A stretch of DNA of 64,000 nt, taken from Leptospiraceae bacterium. GTDB lineage: Bacteria > Spirochaetota > Leptospiria > Leptospirales > Leptospiraceae. Made by a program: the position numbers and the translations under genes. Position 1 is the first letter of the stretch. Every line of letters begins with the position of its first letter. This document shows positions 6,708 through 22,286 of the stretch, piece after piece. The stretch covers positions 220,001 to 284,000 of the forward strand of contig JABTUZ010000002.1 of NCBI GenBank assembly GCA_015075105.1, given 5' to 3'. Below the pieces are notes generated by a model that did no database searches, was not told where the DNA came from, and was given only the letters and a program-made list of their open reading frames with translations.

Positions 6708-7007
6708 TTAGAGCATAATTGTTTTAATTTTTGCAAAAATAGAAAATTCAACCGATTGCTTAGTTTCTTGGAATACTGTCACATTTATAATGTATCAATT
6801 AAAGTCTTAACCGCTATGAATACTAAATTTTCTTATATTTTTGCGTATTAATTATAAAATAATCCTTTTGGATCTGCTATTTATTAAAAAATGACACAAA
6901 AAAGACATATTTTGGAAAAAAATTTTTTCCTTTCTAAAATATTGCTTTCAAAAAAAAATCAATCGTGCAATTATGGTACTTAACTCTAAATTAGTAAGGA
7001 GAAATTA
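6708..7007. other. AT-rich intergenic region upstream of lipL21
   Basis: This is the rest of the divergent gap before lipL21. It is very AT-rich with many A and T tracts and has no open frame or RNA gene that I can support. The lipL21 Shine-Dalgarno (AAGGAG, about 6996-7001) is clear. A promoter is expected here, but I could not choose a convincing -35/-10 pair. Confidence 0.5.
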
Positions 7008-7568
7008 ATGAAAAAGAGTCTTTTGATTTTAATGGTCGGTATTATCGGCTACATCGGATGTGGCAGCACAGACACTGGTCAAAGAGATGCTACTACTACA
7101 GGCGATGGTGGTTGGATTTTTGAAGGTTGGGGAGGCCCACCTGAAGTAAGAGCCGACAAAAAAACACCAAAGGACACAGCTCCAAAAGATTGGTACTACA
7201 TGAAATATCCGGCTAGGGCATCTGCAAAAGCGGTTGCTAAGAAAAGCCAGGCTATGATGCAGTCAACCTGTCGTGAAGCTGCAAGACTACAAGGTGCAAA
7301 CGATGTAGTTAAGAAGATGATCGGAGAGTCAATCGAAGGTGCATCTGGAGTATCTGATGGAGAATCTACAGGTTCTGTAATCGTGTCTCAAAGCGCTGGT
7401 GTTGTAAAAGGCGTTGGAGCTTATGATTGTAAAGCAACCGGTCCAGGTTCTGATCCAAAAGATGTTTCTAAAGACAACTGGGAAGAATGCCAGTGTGTTA
7501 TCTATGCTAAATTTGAAGGCGGAAAAGATGCTCTAGTTGCAAAAGCTAAAGCTATCGAAAACAAGTAA
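7008..7568 (+). CDS. lipL21: outer-membrane lipoprotein LipL21
   Basis: 186 residues, the length expected for LipL21. The lipoprotein signal ends GYIGC (Cys18). The mature sequence contains FEGWGGPPEVR, KTPKDTAPKDWYYMKY, AKKSQAMMQSTCREAARLQG, VIVSQSAGVVKGVGAYDCKA and WEECQCVIYAKF. From memory these match LipL21, an abundant surface lipoprotein first described in pathogenic Leptospira. Start supported by AAGGAG 6 bases upstream. The gene is monocistronic, followed by a strong terminator. Its molecular role is not established. Confidence 0.85.
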   Translation: MKKSLLILMVGIIGYIGCGSTDTGQRDATTTGDGGWIFEGWGGPPEVRADKKTPKDTAPKDWYYMKYPARASAKAVAKKSQAMMQSTCREAARLQGANDVVKKMIGESIEGASGVSDGESTGSVIVSQSAGVVKGVGAYDCKATGPGSDPKDVSKDNWEECQCVIYAKFEGGKDALVAKAKAIENK

Positions 7569-7585
7569 TTCCCTTCGTTTTATGC

Positions 7586-7625
7586 AAAACAACCCAAAAG
7601 TAATTCCTTTGGGTTGTTTTTTTTT
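7586..7625 (+). terminator. strong intrinsic terminator after lipL21
   Basis: A perfect 13-bp stem pairs 7586-7598 (AAAACAACCCAAA) with 7608-7620 around a 9-base loop. An uninterrupted T run follows. Confidence 0.9.
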
Positions 7626-7742
7626 ACTTATCATTTAAAATTTTACATAAAATAGAAGCAAAAACTATTTTACCAATACAAGCCAGCTATTGCTATTTCT
7701 TCTGTGAAGCTGTATTTTTTTGAATATTTTTGTATATTTTGC

Positions 7743-7770
7743 TTGTATATTTTTTATTTGATTTTATAAT
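7743..7770 (+). promoter_or_regulatory. sigma-70-type promoter of the 510-residue lipoprotein gene
   Basis: TTGTAT (7743-7748), a 16-bp spacer and a perfect TATAAT (7765-7770), placed 57 bp before the start codon. The -35 matches four of six consensus bases. Confidence 0.6.
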
Positions 7771-7792
7771 GTTATCCAATATACAGAATTTA

Positions 7793-7808
7793 TTTACTAA
7801 TTAGTAAA
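7793..7808. promoter_or_regulatory. 16-bp perfect palindrome in the 5' leader
   Basis: TTTACTAATTAGTAAA is its own reverse complement. It lies between the predicted transcription start and the Shine-Dalgarno (AAAGGAG) of the gene at 7827. It could be an operator for a dimeric repressor; the lipL21 leader carries a related half (AAATTAGTAAGG). Confidence 0.4.
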
Positions 7809-7826
7809 ATTAAAGGAGATTTTGAT

Positions 7827-9359
7827 ATGAAAAAAATGAAACTTGCTCAAAAATTTGCAAGTATCGGCACAATTCTTTCTATTGTACTGGTATCTGTAAT
7901 TTTAACTCTTTCTTGCAAGAAAGATAAAGACGATAAAACAGGACTATTCGTATTGGCGGCTTTATTGGCGAGTGGGCAAAGAGACATGTACGGTGGTTTT
8001 GCAGATATTCCTGCAAGTATTTATAAATCTTCTGCAAGTTCAGCAAGCTCATCTATCCGACAAACCTTAGCGACCAGCGATTATAAATTCAAATCAGGGA
8101 CAAGCTCTGTCGCAGGAGTTTTTGATCTTGTAAAAGTAACCGCAAAAAATACCAGAGATATTGCGAAATCCATTGGTGATCTTGTAAAAGCGCTAGAAGA
8201 TTTGAATGTCACTGTAAGCTCAACGGCACTCACAGGAACAAGCACTTGGGGTGAAAAGCCTGCTAAATACAGCTACAAATCAAGTACAAAACTTTCAGGC
8301 GGAAAGCTATTAGAAATTTGGTGGAACAACGCAGGTGGTGCTTACGCAAATAACAAAGCAATTGAAATGAATTACACAGGTAGCGTTGCAAGTGGAAGTA
8401 TAAATGGGTATCTCTGGGTAAGATTTTTATCATCTGCTACAGCTACTACTCTCTCAAAAGCGTACATCAATTTTGAATATAAAGCCAGCACAAACACAAG
8501 AACTATGGTTGTGATTATGCAAGATATAGGACCGAACTACCAAGACAAAGCTCACTTTTTTGTTCAGGAAGTAAGCGGTACTACAAAGATGGATGGTGGT
8601 TATACTGCCTACGGCTTCAACCCAAACGCAACAGGTGTTACTGCAGCTGACAGAACATACGTATTTAATGCGATTGGAAATTCTGGGAAGGCTGTAATCA
8701 ATGCTGCATTTCCGTTGTCTTCCGATAATACTTCTACGGTATTTTCCAATACTTCTCTTGGAAATATTGGACAAGTTTGGACTTCATTTATATTGGCAAA
8801 TTCATCAACTGTATCCACGGTAAATAGTTTAGCCGGTTATGGAATAACTTCTTGTGGTGCGTCATATATTGCTCAAACCCCGAACAATGGAAATCCAACT
8901 TCACTTTTATCTACATTTTCTGTAGCCAATTTGAAAAATTGTTTAGATTCACTACTTGCGGTTGCGCCAACAAATTCAGGAGCACAAGGAGTGTATTTTC
9001 TTACTAATATCAAAAATCCGGCTTACTTTACCTATACCGGATCAAATGCTAGTTTGTACGGAGTAGAAAGCCTTGCTGCAAATGATGCACTCTATACTGA
9101 TTTTAAAGCTCTACAGGATAACTTGGCAACTGCACCAAGGACGACTGCAAACACAACATATCCAGCTTCTATGGATGCTGCAAGTATTGCCTCGATTAAT
9201 TTATTTACGGGGGTAGGAATTCCTACAGGGTCATCCGCAACCGCTTTGACTTCATTAAATGCTCAGTGGGGAAATGGAACTCCTTTTAACGGTACTTCCA
9301 GTTCATCTGCTGGTACAAATTCTGTAAATGGAAGCTCCGATAATACAGCTCCATTCTAA
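7827..9359 (+). CDS. large Ser/Thr/Ala-rich lipoprotein of unknown function
   Basis: 510 residues. The signal peptide ends VILTLSC (Cys30), followed by a charged KKDKDDK stretch and a hydrophobic FVLAALLASG, a layout common in Leptospira lipoproteins. The mature part is rich in Ser, Thr, Ala, Gly and Asn, with many short beta-prone segments and few charges, as in surface-exposed beta proteins. No domain was recognised. The start is backed by AAAGGAG. It stands alone between its own promoter and terminator. Confidence 0.75.
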   Translation: MKKMKLAQKFASIGTILSIVLVSVILTLSCKKDKDDKTGLFVLAALLASGQRDMYGGFADIPASIYKSSASSASSSIRQTLATSDYKFKSGTSSVAGVFDLVKVTAKNTRDIAKSIGDLVKALEDLNVTVSSTALTGTSTWGEKPAKYSYKSSTKLSGGKLLEIWWNNAGGAYANNKAIEMNYTGSVASGSINGYLWVRFLSSATATTLSKAYINFEYKASTNTRTMVVIMQDIGPNYQDKAHFFVQEVSGTTKMDGGYTAYGFNPNATGVTAADRTYVFNAIGNSGKAVINAAFPLSSDNTSTVFSNTSLGNIGQVWTSFILANSSTVSTVNSLAGYGITSCGASYIAQTPNNGNPTSLLSTFSVANLKNCLDSLLAVAPTNSGAQGVYFLTNIKNPAYFTYTGSNASLYGVESLAANDALYTDFKALQDNLATAPRTTANTTYPASMDAASIASINLFTGVGIPTGSSATALTSLNAQWGNGTPFNGTSSSSAGTNSVNGSSDNTAPF

Positions 9360-16912: not shown

Positions 16913-17677
16913 ATGCCTATTTCTGCTTGCATAATTACACTTAACGAAGAAGATATTCTTGAATCGTGTTTGAAGTCTTTAGATTTTGTAGATGAGATTA
17001 TAATTGTAGATTCTCATTCAACAGACAGAACTCTTGAGATTGCTAAAAAATATAAGGCAAAAACTTTTTTACGAAAGTTTGATAACTACGTAAATCAAAA
17101 AAACTACTGTTTAAAAAAAGCATCCCATGATTGGGTGCTGGCATTGGATGCCGATGAAGTTGTCTCACAAAAACTCAAACAAGAAATTTTGTTATTAAAA
17201 GAAAATATTTTTTCAAAATACGATGCTTTTTATTTACCCAGACTTTCTTTTTATTTAGGGCAATGGATATATCATGGCGGGTGGTATCCCAATTACCAGA
17301 TAAGGCTTTTTAAAAAATCTATCTCCAAATTTGAAGGACAACTCGTACACGAAAAAGTTATAACCACGGGTAAACTTTCTTATCTGAAAAATTCTTTACT
17401 CCATTATTCTTACAAAAATATTTCAGACCATTTAAAATTTATAGATAAGTATTCTGATCTTACTGCAAAGGAAAGATTCCGTGAAGGTAAATCTTGTAGC
17501 GTAGTCCTTGCGGTTGGTAAAGCATTTTGGAAGTTTGTTTGGATGTACTTTTTTCGGTTGGGATTTTTAGACGGAAAAGCGGGTCTGATTATTTCTATAC
17601 TTGGCTCATACTATAATTTTTTGAAATACATAAAGGTTTATGAATTAAAAATCAATTCGTCCAGAACCAATCATTGA
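16913..17677 (+). CDS. family 2 glycosyltransferase (WaaE/LPS core type)
   Basis: 254 residues: [21 protein letters not shown] at the N-terminus, [17 protein letters not shown], and the metal/nucleotide-sugar motif ALDADEV. The C-terminal half ([13 protein letters not shown], then HEKVITTGK) matches the WaaE-like branch that adds sugars to LPS core or O-unit precursors. One or two hydrophobic helices near the C-terminus suggest membrane association. Its end overlaps ruvC (convergent) by 33 bp. The actual acceptor is unknown. Confidence 0.85.
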
Positions 17678-18142
17678 AAATCCTACAAATGCTGCAGCAA
17701 TAGCATCCCATGAATCATCGTGTCCTGTTAAATTTTTAATTCCAAAGAGTAGTTGTATCGCTTTTTTGACCTGCTTTTTGTCTGCGTTTCCATTGCCTGT
17801 GATTCCTTTTTTAATTTGTGAAACTGTAGGCTGAATGATTTTTATCTTGGCTTCAATCAAGGTTAATAGGATGACCCCGCGTGATTCAAAAACATTTTTT
17901 GCTGTTTTTTGATTTTTTGAAAAAAATAATTCTTCTACACTTGCAAATTCAGGAATATGCTCTTCGAGGATCATTTTCAATTCATTGCGAATGATTAATA
18001 AATTTTCCGGTGAAATTGTATTTGGTGGAACTTCGATTGTTCCATAGGAAACAATGGACAATTTGTTTTTCTTTATTTCGTCTCTTTCTACAACACTGTA
18101 ACCAATTCTATGAGAGCCGGGATCAATGCCGATGATTTTCAC
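17645..18142 (-). CDS. ruvC: Holliday junction resolvase RuvC
   Basis: 165 residues. Resolves four-way DNA junctions after branch migration by RuvAB. The RNase H-like fold shows [13 protein letters not shown] (Asp7), SVEELFF, and the C-terminal acidic pair in [13 protein letters not shown]. No ruvA or ruvB is in the window. Start ATG shares a base with the stop of the gene upstream, indicating tight coupling with the SpsF-like fusion. Confidence 0.95.
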
Positions 18143-19722
18143 TAATTTAAAATATCCTGAATTTTTTTGATTAGATTTTTGTACCCCGAATTTTGAATGA
18201 TCAGATTTGATTTGTGAATTTGATCCACAGAAATTTTTCTAAGTTTGTTCAGTGGCCCAAGAAAGATTGAATTAGAATTTAAAGAAAAAAATTCTCCAAG
18301 CTCCGTATGATAATCTGAGATAGAATAGATGAGTGTTTTTTTTTCGAGATAGACCGACTCCATAAGGCTTTGACCAAAATACGTGCAAAAACATGAGCAT
18401 GCACTTAAAAGATTTACGTATTCATTTCGAGACAATCTGAATATTACTTCTACAGGGAAGGGGGAGTTTAACTCTCCTCCCACTCGAATATATCGAAACT
18501 CAGAACCAAAAGTCTCAAACAAAAATTTATCGAGACGTATCGATTCATCTCTGTTTCTACCGCCCGCATAAGTTAAGATAGTTTTTGTCTCGGTGTTTTG
18601 AACTTTGTAATAATCTATTATGGAAGGATAAAGAATATTTTGTAAAGAGTTCTGAAAATTGATTTTTGGATGAGGCAATACGTCAAAGTGATAAAATTGA
18701 TCTCTATCTGGTCCAAAGTTATCTATTAAAAGTATTTTTTTTGAGTAAAAATTTTCAGGAAGAATCACGTCTCTATAATCAATTATAGCTAAATCAAAAT
18801 TTTCATTTATCTGAAATTTTGAACTTAAAGATACGTTATACCCAAGGGCAGATAATTTTACGTGGAGGATTTTACTTCTTTCAAAATGCCCTGTACCGTG
18901 TGTATTTAGGGGAGCGTATATAATTTGAATTTTTTGTTTTGAGTTTTTTGAGGATATATTCACAGAAAAAGATATTTGTTCTACAGAATCATTGATCGTA
19001 AAAATTTCAGGCTTTTCTTTATACAAACTAATTACTTCTTTAACTCCAAAAAAGAAATTATCTTTACACAATTCTAAATATACTTTTTCTGCTAATTCAA
19101 AATCTTTATCCTCATCTATCGTAAGTCGTATCTTTTTTGAAATCAGAATTTCTTCTGCTGACAAGTATGATTGTAATTTTATAAATTGAAATTTTTGTGA
19201 GTCTTCCTTAATGTGAAGGCTGACATGCTCTCTATGTCTATCTTGCAGATTGACAGAAGGTGATTCGCATAACGCATGATTTGTAAAAATTTCTCCACCC
19301 ATTCCAATTGGAATATTTGAAAATGAGGCAATATCTGCTAATGAATCGTTTAATGCTTCACACAATAATTCTAAATACGAAACATCAAGAAAAGGATTAT
19401 CCCCTGTTAAACGAATAATTTCTTTTGCTCCGAATTTTTCAGATGCTAAAATATATCTTTCTCTTACATCGTTTTCACTACCTTCAAAAAACAAAAATTG
19501 TCTTTGAGTAAGAAATTTTTTTAATTCTGTATCATTGTCAGGAATAAGGAAAACAATTCTATCCTCAGGCAGTACTTGTTTTAATCTAAGATAAATGTGA
19601 TCTAATATAGTTAGATTTGATTTTTCAGGAAGTGTTTTTAACACTTTCCTTGGTAGTCTCGTCGAGCCGCTACGAGCCTGAACAAAAGCAAAAACACTAT
19701 GCGTTGAATGTGTACCACTCAT
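18142..19722 (-). CDS. SpsF-like cytidylyltransferase fused to a PseG-like glycosyltransferase domain
   Basis: 526 residues in two halves. Residues about 9-240 are an SpsF/NeuA-type nucleotidyltransferase: [47 protein letters not shown] and [17 protein letters not shown]. Residues about 262-526 resemble the GT-B half-fold of Pse[32 protein letters not shown], and [29 protein letters not shown]. The enzyme probably activates a sialic-acid-like or related sugar and acts on the nucleotide sugar. Its start overlaps the spiro-SPASM gene by 26 bp. The exact substrate is unknown. Confidence 0.8.
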
Positions 19723-21220
19723 CGCATTGCAAACAAGGTGCTTTTGTTAAGGAATGATTTCCGTGAAGAGAATTAGAAAAAGAATCAAGTCCTCTATTCC
19801 AAATCTCGATTATTGAATTCGTATTCAGATTGCCTATAGAATTCTGAAAATCTTGTCTGCAAATTGCCACACTGCCGTCGTGGCAAATATACATATCTCT
19901 CGTGAGATGCCAACAAAATTCTCTTTTGATTGGAGTTAGGTCGCTTACTCTTTTTTCAGGCATTAGTTCTGCATAACGATTGTATTTTTGTAAAATCACA
20001 TTGATTTGTTTTTCTTCAAAGAAGTTGAAATAATTTTCTATTTGATTTTCGACTTCTTTCATTTTGATAATCTGAACATGGAGGTTGCCTTTTTGAAGAA
20101 ATTTTTCCAATTGATTTATTTTCTTTAATAGATCGGGTAAAATATTTTTTCCATAAATAGAATGATATTGCTTTTCGTCTAACGTACTCAAATTTACAAT
20201 GAAGGTAAGTTTCTTCTTTTCTCCAAGTGAAAGACCCTCGATAAACTGAATCAGGTTATCAATGTCGGTGGACAAAGATGTTTCTACAATAAGCTCCTTT
20301 AAGGAGTCAGTGAAAAGAGCAGCTTTGACTATATCGTTAAATTCTGGATGGAGCAAAGGCTCTCCCATTCCACCAAAACAAACTGAAAAAGGAGAATGAA
20401 AATATTCATTCATATCCTTGAAAAGACTTTGCAGAAATTCTGTATTCAAATATTGACCATCTGAATCATTAGAAATATATTGTCTCGGACAGAAAGTGCA
20501 TTTTAAGTCACAACCTCTAAACAATTCAATCTCAATGTAAGACGGTGATGAGCGAAATATTTTAGGGAATTTCATGAGTAAAGGGAGTATTTCTTTGTAA
20601 GTGGTCTTAGAATTTTCCTTTAATAAGGAATCTACTAAAACTGATGAGCGTGAATCCTTTAAAGAAAAATTCAAACGGTATTGTCGAAGGTCAGGCGGAG
20701 AATAAAAAATCTCTACGTCGTAATTGTTTATATTTTTCAATAAATATTCATGAGTAGCCGTTTCTAATTTTTTAGGGAGAGATAACACAAATTCTCTCGA
20801 TATAAAAAAGGGAACTATTCCAGCTGGAAGATTTTCAGAGTAAGAATATTGAGAAAGATATTTTTTATGACGAGAAAGTAATTCTTGGGTTAGGTTTGTA
20901 TCAAGTAAAGGAAAGATTCCAGGTATATAAACAAAAAAAACCTCATCTATATCACTATCCCCTGAAATAGAAGGTGGTAATTTCTCAGTTACTTTTTGTA
21001 AAAAATCCAACTCATCAGTTGAGTGAATCGCTTGAATATCAAGAAAATACTTTTTTAAAATTTCAATATCTTGATTAACAAAAATTTTTAAATTAGGGAA
21101 AACTTCTTTTAATTTTTCTGAAAATTTAAAAACTAAATTTGAGTAATTCTCTATCTGCTCTACATTTTCCTGAGTTAAGAAAATTGAAACAAGAGAAGGA
21201 TGAAATTCGAGTAGATTCAT
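19697..21220 (-). CDS. spiro-SPASM protein (radical SAM with SPASM domain)
   Basis: 507 residues. The radical SAM cluster motif is C237-xxx-C241-xx-C244 (GCDLKCTFCPRQY), followed by FGGMGEPLLHPEF. The C-terminal SPASM domain, carrying auxiliary iron-sulphur Cys, reads FCWHLTRDMYICHDGSVAICRQDF and CLQCDEWY. Residues 1-225 precede the radical SAM barrel and look like a worn nucleotidyltransferase (IPGIFPLLDTNL, ENLPAGIVPF). The family TIGR04321 is confined to spirochaetes and its reaction is unknown. It overlaps the SpsF-like gene and follows the surA-like gene by 10 bp. Confidence 0.88.
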   Translation of the reverse strand: MNLLEFHPSLVSIFLTQENVEQIENYSNLVFKFSEKLKEVFPNLKIFVNQDIEILKKYFLDIQAIHSTDELDFLQKVTEKLPPSISGDSDIDEVFFVYIPGIFPLLDTNLTQELLSRHKKYLSQYSYSENLPAGIVPFFISREFVLSLPKKLETATHEYLLKNINNYDVEIFYSPPDLRQYRLNFSLKDSRSSVLVDSLLKENSKTTYKEILPLLMKFPKIFRSSPSYIEIELFRGCDLKCTFCPRQYISNDSDGQYLNTEFLQSLFKDMNEYFHSPFSVCFGGMGEPLLHPEFNDIVKAALFTDSLKELIVETSLSTDIDNLIQFIEGLSLGEKKKLTFIVNLSTLDEKQYHSIYGKNILPDLLKKINQLEKFLQKGNLHVQIIKMKEVENQIENYFNFFEEKQINVILQKYNRYAELMPEKRVSDLTPIKREFCWHLTRDMYICHDGSVAICRQDFQNSIGNLNTNSIIEIWNRGLDSFSNSLHGNHSLTKAPCLQCDEWYTFNA

Positions 21221-21230
21221 AAAAATTTCA

Positions 21231-22286
21231 TCATTGCCTTTTTTCGTTATTTTTATCTGTCGGCAAGTCTTCTGGTCTTTGAAAACTTTCTTCAGGAGTG
21301 TCTAATTTATTTTCTTTAATATATTCTTTATCATAAATCGTAATTGAAATCTCTCTTCTTCTTGAAAGAACCCAGTTATCGAAGGAATCTTCTTCTTTGT
21401 CTCTGTAAAGCATATTTTGAATTCCTTTTTTAACAAGCTCAAGAGGAGTAGGTCGCTTTCCTTCCATTTTAATAATACAATATCGTTTACGCTCGTCCCT
21501 GAATACATCCGAAATTTTTCCTTCGGGTAATCCCATTGCCACTGTTGCTGCAATTTTATTTTGCTTATATAATTCAAAAGCAGGAATCCAATCTATGAGT
21601 CCCCCATTTTTATAATTAGATTGATTTCTAGGGCCGCTTGCAATTAATTTAAATGATTCGGGATCCTTTAGGGCTTCATTTCTAATTGCAGTGATTTCTT
21701 TTGATATTCGAGTCTCTTCTTCTAAGGAGTGCTTTGAAGGAATCAGAGCAATTTCTCTTAGCCGAATTTCGAAACCTACTTTGTTTTTATTTGCGTTGTA
21801 CCAACTTAGAATTTCTTTATCACTTGGAAGTTTTGTATTTACCCGTACTTGCAGAAGTTGTCCTTTTTTAATTTGATAAGGAAGCTCACTAACCCACATA
21901 TCAAAACTCATTCCTGTTTGAGCTTGAATGTTTTTTTCGAAAACGGCACGATCCTTTATTCCCATGACTTCCATTCTTTTTTCAATTTCAGTATCTATGC
22001 GTTTTTCTGTAACTTGAATGGATTCTTCTTCGGCAGTAATATCTACAATGGCTCTCGCAATTAAAAAATCCAAGACTTGAGTCTTCATCGAAGCTTTATG
22101 ATTAATCTTTGGTAGAAATTTTGATAATTTTTTGTATTTATCTTCTCCATACTCATAGTCAATTTGAGTAATCGAAGTGTTTTTGATCGTTGCAAGAATC
22201 TTGTTTAATGATTCTGCACTAAAAATTACAGAAAAAGGAAAGAGAAAAACAAGCAATAAGGTGAAATTTTTTAAGAAAGAAAACAT
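21231..22286 (-). CDS. surA: SurA-like periplasmic chaperone / parvulin-type peptidyl-prolyl isomerase
   Basis: 351 residues with a signal peptide (1-24). The SurA N-terminal region (LATIKNTSITQIDYEYGEDKY, QVLDFLIARAIVDITAEEESI, QAQTGMSFDMWVSEL) is followed by one parvulin-like domain (VGFEIRLREIALI, NGGLIDWIPAFEL, GKISDVFRDERKRYCIIKMEG). It would fold outer-membrane proteins in the periplasm. Escherichia coli SurA has two parvulin domains; only one is seen here. It heads the gene cluster running to ruvC. Confidence 0.8.
   Translation of the reverse strand: MFSFLKNFTLLLVFLFPFSVIFSAESLNKILATIKNTSITQIDYEYGEDKYKKLSKFLPKINHKASMKTQVLDFLIARAIVDITAEEESIQVTEKRIDTEIEKRMEVMGIKDRAVFEKNIQAQTGMSFDMWVSELPYQIKKGQLLQVRVNTKLPSDKEILSWYNANKNKVGFEIRLREIALIPSKHSLEEETRISKEITAIRNEALKDPESFKLIASGPRNQSNYKNGGLIDWIPAFELYKQNKIAATVAMGLPEGKISDVFRDERKRYCIIKMEGKRPTPLELVKKGIQNMLYRDKEEDSFDNWVLSRRREISITIYDKEYIKENKLDTPEESFQRPEDLPTDKNNEKRQ

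Follow-up and report, generated by a model that had tools for sequence, protein, structure and literature searches.

The window, a 64,000-nucleotide stretch from a Leptospiraceae bacterium (GenBank assembly GCA_015075105.1, contig JABTUZ010000002.1, positions 220,001 to 284,000 of the forward strand), carries two overlapping genes on its minus strand. The first encodes a spiro-SPASM protein, a member of family TIGR04321 (467.7 bits against a cut-off of 250) in which an N-terminal domain precedes a radical S-adenosylmethionine (SAM) fold, and the second encodes an SpsF-type cytidylyltransferase fused to a PseG/SpsG-like domain (Table 1). An earlier note on this DNA had placed both open reading frames (ORFs), their strand and their overlap correctly, and had proposed that the N-terminal domain of the first protein is a worn relative of the cytidylyltransferase in the second. 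The present analysis confirms that residues 1–225 form a nucleotidyltransferase-fold domain homologous to the adjoining SpsF-type enzyme, and finds that the radical SAM cysteines were repeatedly lost across the family while the N-terminal domain and an auxiliary iron-sulfur site remained under strong constraint.

Table 1. Features of the spiro-SPASM/SpsF locus (window coordinates)
Feature	Position	Strand	Basis
SpsF-type cytidylyltransferase fused to PseG/SpsG-like domain, 526 aa	18142..19722	-	PF02348; family alignments
PseG/SpsG-like C-terminal domain, GxGTGHxxR motif	18145..18951	-	alignment; weak TIGR03590 PseG matches in relatives
SpsF cytidylyltransferase domain, QxRxxSxR, RxTGDN and RLTxDxxxD motifs intact	18988..19722	-	invariant columns; 6oew
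Overlap of spiro-SPASM and SpsF-fusion genes, 26 bp	19697..19722	-	ORFs; other Leptospiraceae also overlap
Spiro-SPASM protein, 507 aa (TIGR04321)	19697..21220	-	ORF; AlphaFold2 pLDDT (predicted local distance difference test) 94.7
Auxiliary-cluster Cys C436-x17-C454 and C496-x2-C499, Twitch type, one [4Fe-4S]	19724..19915	-	family spacing; BtrN alignment
Radical SAM core, residues 226-425	19946..20545	-	PF04055 2e-9; BtrN, SuiB, anSME, MoaA matches
CxxxCxxC (C237, C241, C244), intact	20489..20512	-	
N-terminal pseudo-cytidylyltransferase domain, residues 1-225	20546..21220	-	hhalign, 6oew PDB profile match, Foldseek, residue map
Peptidyl-prolyl isomerase (TIGR04142), conserved upstream neighbour	21231..22286	-	458 bits

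The Pfam models Radical_SAM and SPASM match the 507-residue protein only from residue 231 onward, and a head-to-head BLASTP comparison of the two window proteins gives a best E of 0.72 that falls outside the domain; since the single sequences fail to match each other, the two-motif resemblance on which the proposal of common ancestry was based is not beyond chance. The relationship is recovered when families are compared. A phmmer search with the SpsF domain matched three spiro-SPASM proteins of other genomes directly (3e-6, 4e-5 and 5e-4), the TIGR04321 model itself matches an SpsF protein at 9e-5, and hhalign gives E 4e-14 over 216 columns for the whole alignments of both families and E 1e-15 for the isolated domains, against 0.47 for an unrelated control profile. 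The solved cytidylyltransferase 6oew, which is the closest structure to the SpsF profile in the PDB (E 4e-56), is also matched by the N-domain profile (1.6e-6). Structure prediction leads to the same fold as the profile-profile search: the isolated N-domain was modelled by AlphaFold2 with a pLDDT of 93.3, and its top Foldseek matches are all nucleotidyltransferase-fold proteins (IspD, TarI and GDP-mannose pyrophosphorylase, then KdsB and NeuA). The register originally drawn between the motifs was right, with P104/P110, P132/P138 and G134/G140 aligned.

The domain thus shares its fold and its whole length with SpsF and other synthetases of cytidine monophosphate (CMP)-nonulosonate or CMP-Kdo (PF02348; 6oew, KdsB, NeuA), including the IPxG and DxP positions, but differs from them in its active site and in being fused to a Twitch radical SAM protein. 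In the window its sequence lacks the SpsF nucleotide-loop residues Q15, R17, S20, R22 and K26, the metal-site aspartate D108, and D203/D207, the RLTxDxxxD motif being replaced. The loss is general, as neither QxRxxSxR nor RxT(A/G)DN occurs in any of the 168 distinct family members compared, whereas 107 and 111, respectively, of 114 neighboring SpsF proteins retain them, with crude ORF starts accounting for part of the misses. The metal-site aspartate (column 102) is retained in 112 of the 168. The loss of catalytic residues, as previously proposed, is therefore well founded, but the domain is not merely worn or decaying: G134, E170, D177, R179 and R182, near-invariant residues of its own, are each kept in 162–167 of the 168 proteins.

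The radical SAM site has had a different history. Although CxxxCxxC is intact in the window protein, all three cysteines are present in only 93 of the 168 members, while 73 have at most one and two are unclear. The motif changes state 13 times on each of two trees (a FastTree phylogeny and a mixture-model tree of 94 rows from which the motif columns were left out), and supported branches force 8 and 10 of these changes. Because the fold is that of a radical SAM protein, the ancestor must have had the motif, and most of the changes are therefore probably losses. The losers include Brachyspira-like genomes (family f14), a treponeme with a 1.14-Mb genome, other treponemes and most order-mates outside the window's family. 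Sequencing or frame artefacts do not account for the missing cysteines, in that whole clades share one replacement (e.g. QNL across f14), nor do nearby cysteines stand in for them, as the segment is free of cysteine in 49 of the 73 losers and contains two in only 2 of them. In the same 73 proteins the four auxiliary-cluster cysteines are kept at 72–73 of 73, D177 at 73, R182 at 72 and E170 at 71, and identity in the radical core falls from 36 per cent to 25 per cent at matched N-domain identity (30–40 per cent). Given that the radical cluster was repeatedly lost while all else was kept, the essential job of the protein is probably not radical chemistry, and a radical reaction is unlikely to be the conserved function of the family. 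Calling the protein a radical SAM enzyme probably suits the lineage of the window, where the intact motif suggests that the chemistry is still alive, but not the family, about 44 per cent of which has lost the site.

The auxiliary site is better described as Twitch than as SPASM. The four cysteines have a spacing (x17, x2) common to 166 of the 168 members and follow a single-cluster pattern, not the seven-cysteine pattern of two auxiliary clusters, although the SPASM model PF13186 matches nonetheless. The best solved radical SAM relative is BtrN, the Twitch dehydrogenase of 2-deoxy-scyllo-inosamine, which has one auxiliary cluster (E 3e-17 over both segments; Foldseek 4m7t, TMt 0.67); on these two grounds the SPASM name is loose. 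BtrN aligns in both the core and the C-terminal part, including the GNVxxC and CxxC of its auxiliary cluster, but it has no N-terminal nucleotidyltransferase domain, and its radical cluster is the one that so many spiro-SPASM proteins lack. Three Cys-less members tested score 370–518 bits against TIGR04321, far above the cut-off, so that annotation pipelines label them spiro-SPASM; none of the three exceeds the Pfam Radical_SAM cut-off. The name spiro-SPASM was not found in the literature searched. A survey of Treponema pallidum describes TPASS_0285 as no more than an iron-sulfur SPASM protein (PMC4403809), an entry that would fit a Cys-less spiro-SPASM protein if it is the same gene.

The linkage of spiro-SPASM to SpsF, which the earlier note had predicted to be conserved, holds well beyond the window. 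The two genes adjoin in all seven Leptospiraceae loci read (window included), and across the phylum 112 of the 138 loci with enough flank have SpsF downstream on the same strand at no more than 1.8 kb, directly adjacent in 59 of them. On the other side, the TIGR04142 isomerase occupies the position immediately before spiro-SPASM in 85 of 119 loci. In Spirochaetales, spiro-SPASM is followed in turn by a weakly GT2-like gene, SpsF, a PseG-like/methyltransferase gene, a ligase of the ATP-grasp type and an amidase, and in treponemes a single protein of ∼860 residues combines SpsF, a middle region and a methyltransferase. The 1.14-Mb treponeme has such a protein of 862 residues (L153:11328-13916), with the SpsF cytidylyltransferase at its start and the methyltransferase at its end; the gene between it and spiro-SPASM (L153:10237-11343) matches no Pfam or NCBIfam model. 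The flagellin glycan of Treponema denticola is reportedly a pseudaminic-type acid bearing an N-linked methoxy-trihydroxyhexanoyl group, a composition that would fit the methyltransferase and ATP-grasp genes beside SpsF. Two loci are irregular. A contig labelled Caldithrix sp. (L119) bears a spirochaete-type spiro-SPASM/SpsF locus and is apparently the same contig as one from a same-class relative of the window (G090), likely a misnamed metagenome-assembled genome (MAG), and in a same-family genome (L033, G017:C51:39000-54000) the spiro-SPASM frame at 6859–8358 is split by one TAG into 378 and 87 aa, by mutation or assembly error.

The SpsF-type protein in the window appears to be an active cytidylyltransferase. 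CTP_transf_3 (PF02348) matches its residues 13–217 (E 3e-22), and the invariant catalytic columns Q15, R17, S20, R22, K26, D108, D203 and D207 are all present. The complete fusion to a PseG-like domain recurs in five other Leptospiraceae loci, and one further contig stops within the gene. The likeness of this second half to PseG, also proposed before, is less certain: the GxGTGHxxR motif is there, but relatives score only 21–32 bits against TIGR03590, for which the cut-off is 153.55, and a PDB sequence search with the domain gave no solid match. Also in the window, a plus-strand family-2 glycosyltransferase (GT2) gene (16913–17677) and a minus-strand ruvC (17645–18142) have 33 bp in common at their 3' ends.

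Several lines of co-occurrence connect spiro-SPASM to the nonulosonate (NulO) sugars of flagellin. TIGR04321 has matches in 214 of 247 Spirochaetota genomes, and sampled genomes with the gene also have flagellin (45/45), the flagellin glycosyltransferase Maf (PF01973; 38/38), NeuB (38/38) and SpsF (29/29). Of the 33 genomes without it, 10 are incomplete MAGs, which all have Maf and were set aside. None of the remaining 23, which are near-complete, has Maf (16 Borreliaceae-like genomes with flagellin and 7 genomes without flagellin), none of the six tested has SpsF, and two have NeuB, so that in near-complete genomes the match between Maf and spiro-SPASM is exact. Flagellin, Maf and spiro-SPASM are jointly absent from families f49 (G223, G225, G226, G234, G239) and f45 (G149, G237), all sampled genomes of which are near-complete; the lineage identities of f38, f49, f14 and the treponeme genome are those we infer from their size and gene content. 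That the gene simply tracks flagellin is too coarse a description, given the Borreliaceae-like genomes with flagellin and neither Maf nor spiro-SPASM, and that it tracks NeuB only is ruled out by genome G226, which has NeuB without it. In genome G000 a stand-alone NeuB-family synthase (G000:C2:289241-289927; L233:5022-6050) lies ∼48 kb from the spiro-SPASM gene, and a second, different NeuB is on C1. Taken with Maf, NeuB and SpsF, this distribution points indirectly to the flagellin NulO pathway, and of the earlier suggestion that the pair serves a nucleotide-activated sugar for a surface or flagellar glycan, it is the flagellar part that gains such indirect support, now phylum-wide.

There is reason to think, with a probability of roughly 0.55, that spiro-SPASM is a non-radical pseudo-cytidylyltransferase/[4Fe-4S] component of the CMP-nonulosonate supply for flagellin O-glycosylation, to which radical tailoring is an optional addition. 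In an ancestor, a duplicated copy of the CMP-sugar synthetase SpsF would have been fused to a Twitch radical SAM enzyme of the BtrN kind, after which the SpsF-like half may have lost catalysis and gained invariant residues of its own, while the SpsF encoded by the next gene would still make the CMP-sugar. The essential role in the family is most likely for the pseudo-cytidylyltransferase domain and the auxiliary [4Fe-4S] cluster to hold the NulO or its nucleotide. By conjecture, spiro-SPASM would partner SpsF, with the product on its way to the Maf transferases, and in lineages that keep CxxxCxxC, the window's included, the radical core would probably tailor the sugar, for instance by a BtrN-like hydroxyl oxidation, a reaction that is equally conjectural. 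A stricter version, in which both halves are pseudo-enzymes and nearly all spirochaetes with Maf keep the protein as an Fe-S scaffold subunit of their CMP-nonulosonate synthetase, can be put forward only tentatively.

Several observations weigh against this interpretation. SpsF is not adjacent in the Brachyspira-like genomes and some others, the fused domain is only weakly identified as PseG, the NeuB of G226 is a strong match in a genome without spiro-SPASM, and the co-distribution depends on few independent events, the set being missing from about three lineages (f38, f45, f49). The tie of spiro-SPASM to the glycan is also indirect, and its binding to SpsF conjectural.

Known systems provide partial precedents. 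In Bacillus subtilis spsF and spsG are genes of the CMP-legionaminic acid pathway (PMC7439481), and the counterparts of the two are a single fused gene here; that sps pathway (SpsC, SpsD, SpsE, SpsF, SpsG, SpsM), however, has no described counterpart of spiro-SPASM, and its product goes to the spore crust, not to flagellin. The flagellin glycosylation of Campylobacter, Helicobacter and Aeromonas (Pse/Leg and Maf) likewise combines a NeuB-type synthase, CMP activation and Maf, whereas spirochaetes have an SpsF-type cytidylyltransferase and spiro-SPASM.

An unlikely but serious alternative is that spiro-SPASM is an ordinary radical SAM enzyme of sugar tailoring, in which the N-domain only binds the CMP-sugar for a BtrN-like oxidation or epimerisation and the members without the cysteines are relics in decay. 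CxxxCxxC is indeed kept in the window protein and in 92 others, the closest solved protein is a cyclitol dehydrogenase, and there are also matches to BlsE, DesII and viperin, whose substrates are sugars or nucleotides. Relics, however, would not be expected to make up whole clades, as in the Brachyspira-like genomes and the treponemes, to remain strongly constrained at the auxiliary cysteines and N-domain residues, or to persist in a genome of 1.1 Mb. It is somewhat less probable still that the N-domain has a catalysis of its own (glycosyl transfer, hydrolysis or isomerisation on a nucleotide sugar) through H118, E170, D177, R179 and R182 and is more than a partner of SpsF: several of these charged residues are near-invariant and do not align with the catalytic residues of SpsF, but domain packing or binding would explain them too, the nucleotide-binding loop is gone from every member, and a third of the members have also lost the metal-site aspartate.

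That the pathway serves a surface polysaccharide and not flagellin is improbable, even though surface sugars are what the NulO genes of Leptospira interrogans are known for (PMC3438082). The exact co-distribution with Maf speaks for flagellin, as do the absence of spiro-SPASM from both flagellin-less families and its retention in the 1.14-Mb treponeme. Treponema pallidum, for its part, is known to lack lipopolysaccharide. Least probable is that the protein senses iron or redox state and thereby gates the production of CMP-NulO. The auxiliary-cluster cysteines do stay more conserved than any other residues, also in members that have lost radical chemistry, but Twitch auxiliary clusters are usually buried and structural or substrate-binding.

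The preferred interpretation, a non-radical role in CMP-nonulosonate supply, bears on a poorly known set of genes, those for the flagellin sugar of spirochaetes. In T. denticola the glycan (450.2 Da) is reported to be essential for filament assembly (PMC9481697), and in Leptospira it is reported to mediate sheath binding, FlaB1 of L. biflexa showing glycan densities at its interface with the sheath (PMC13144727, where Wyss 1998, on T. pallidum, is listed too). Spiro-SPASM, SpsF, the PseG-like protein, NeuB and Maf together form a phylum-wide candidate set for this pathway. For treponemes and Brachyspira-like species radical SAM annotations of the gene mislead, as the radical site is lost while constraint remains strong. 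What is new relative to the earlier note is that the conserved function is unlikely to be radical; if the scaffold version is true, what a radical SAM family conserves would here be something other than radical chemistry.

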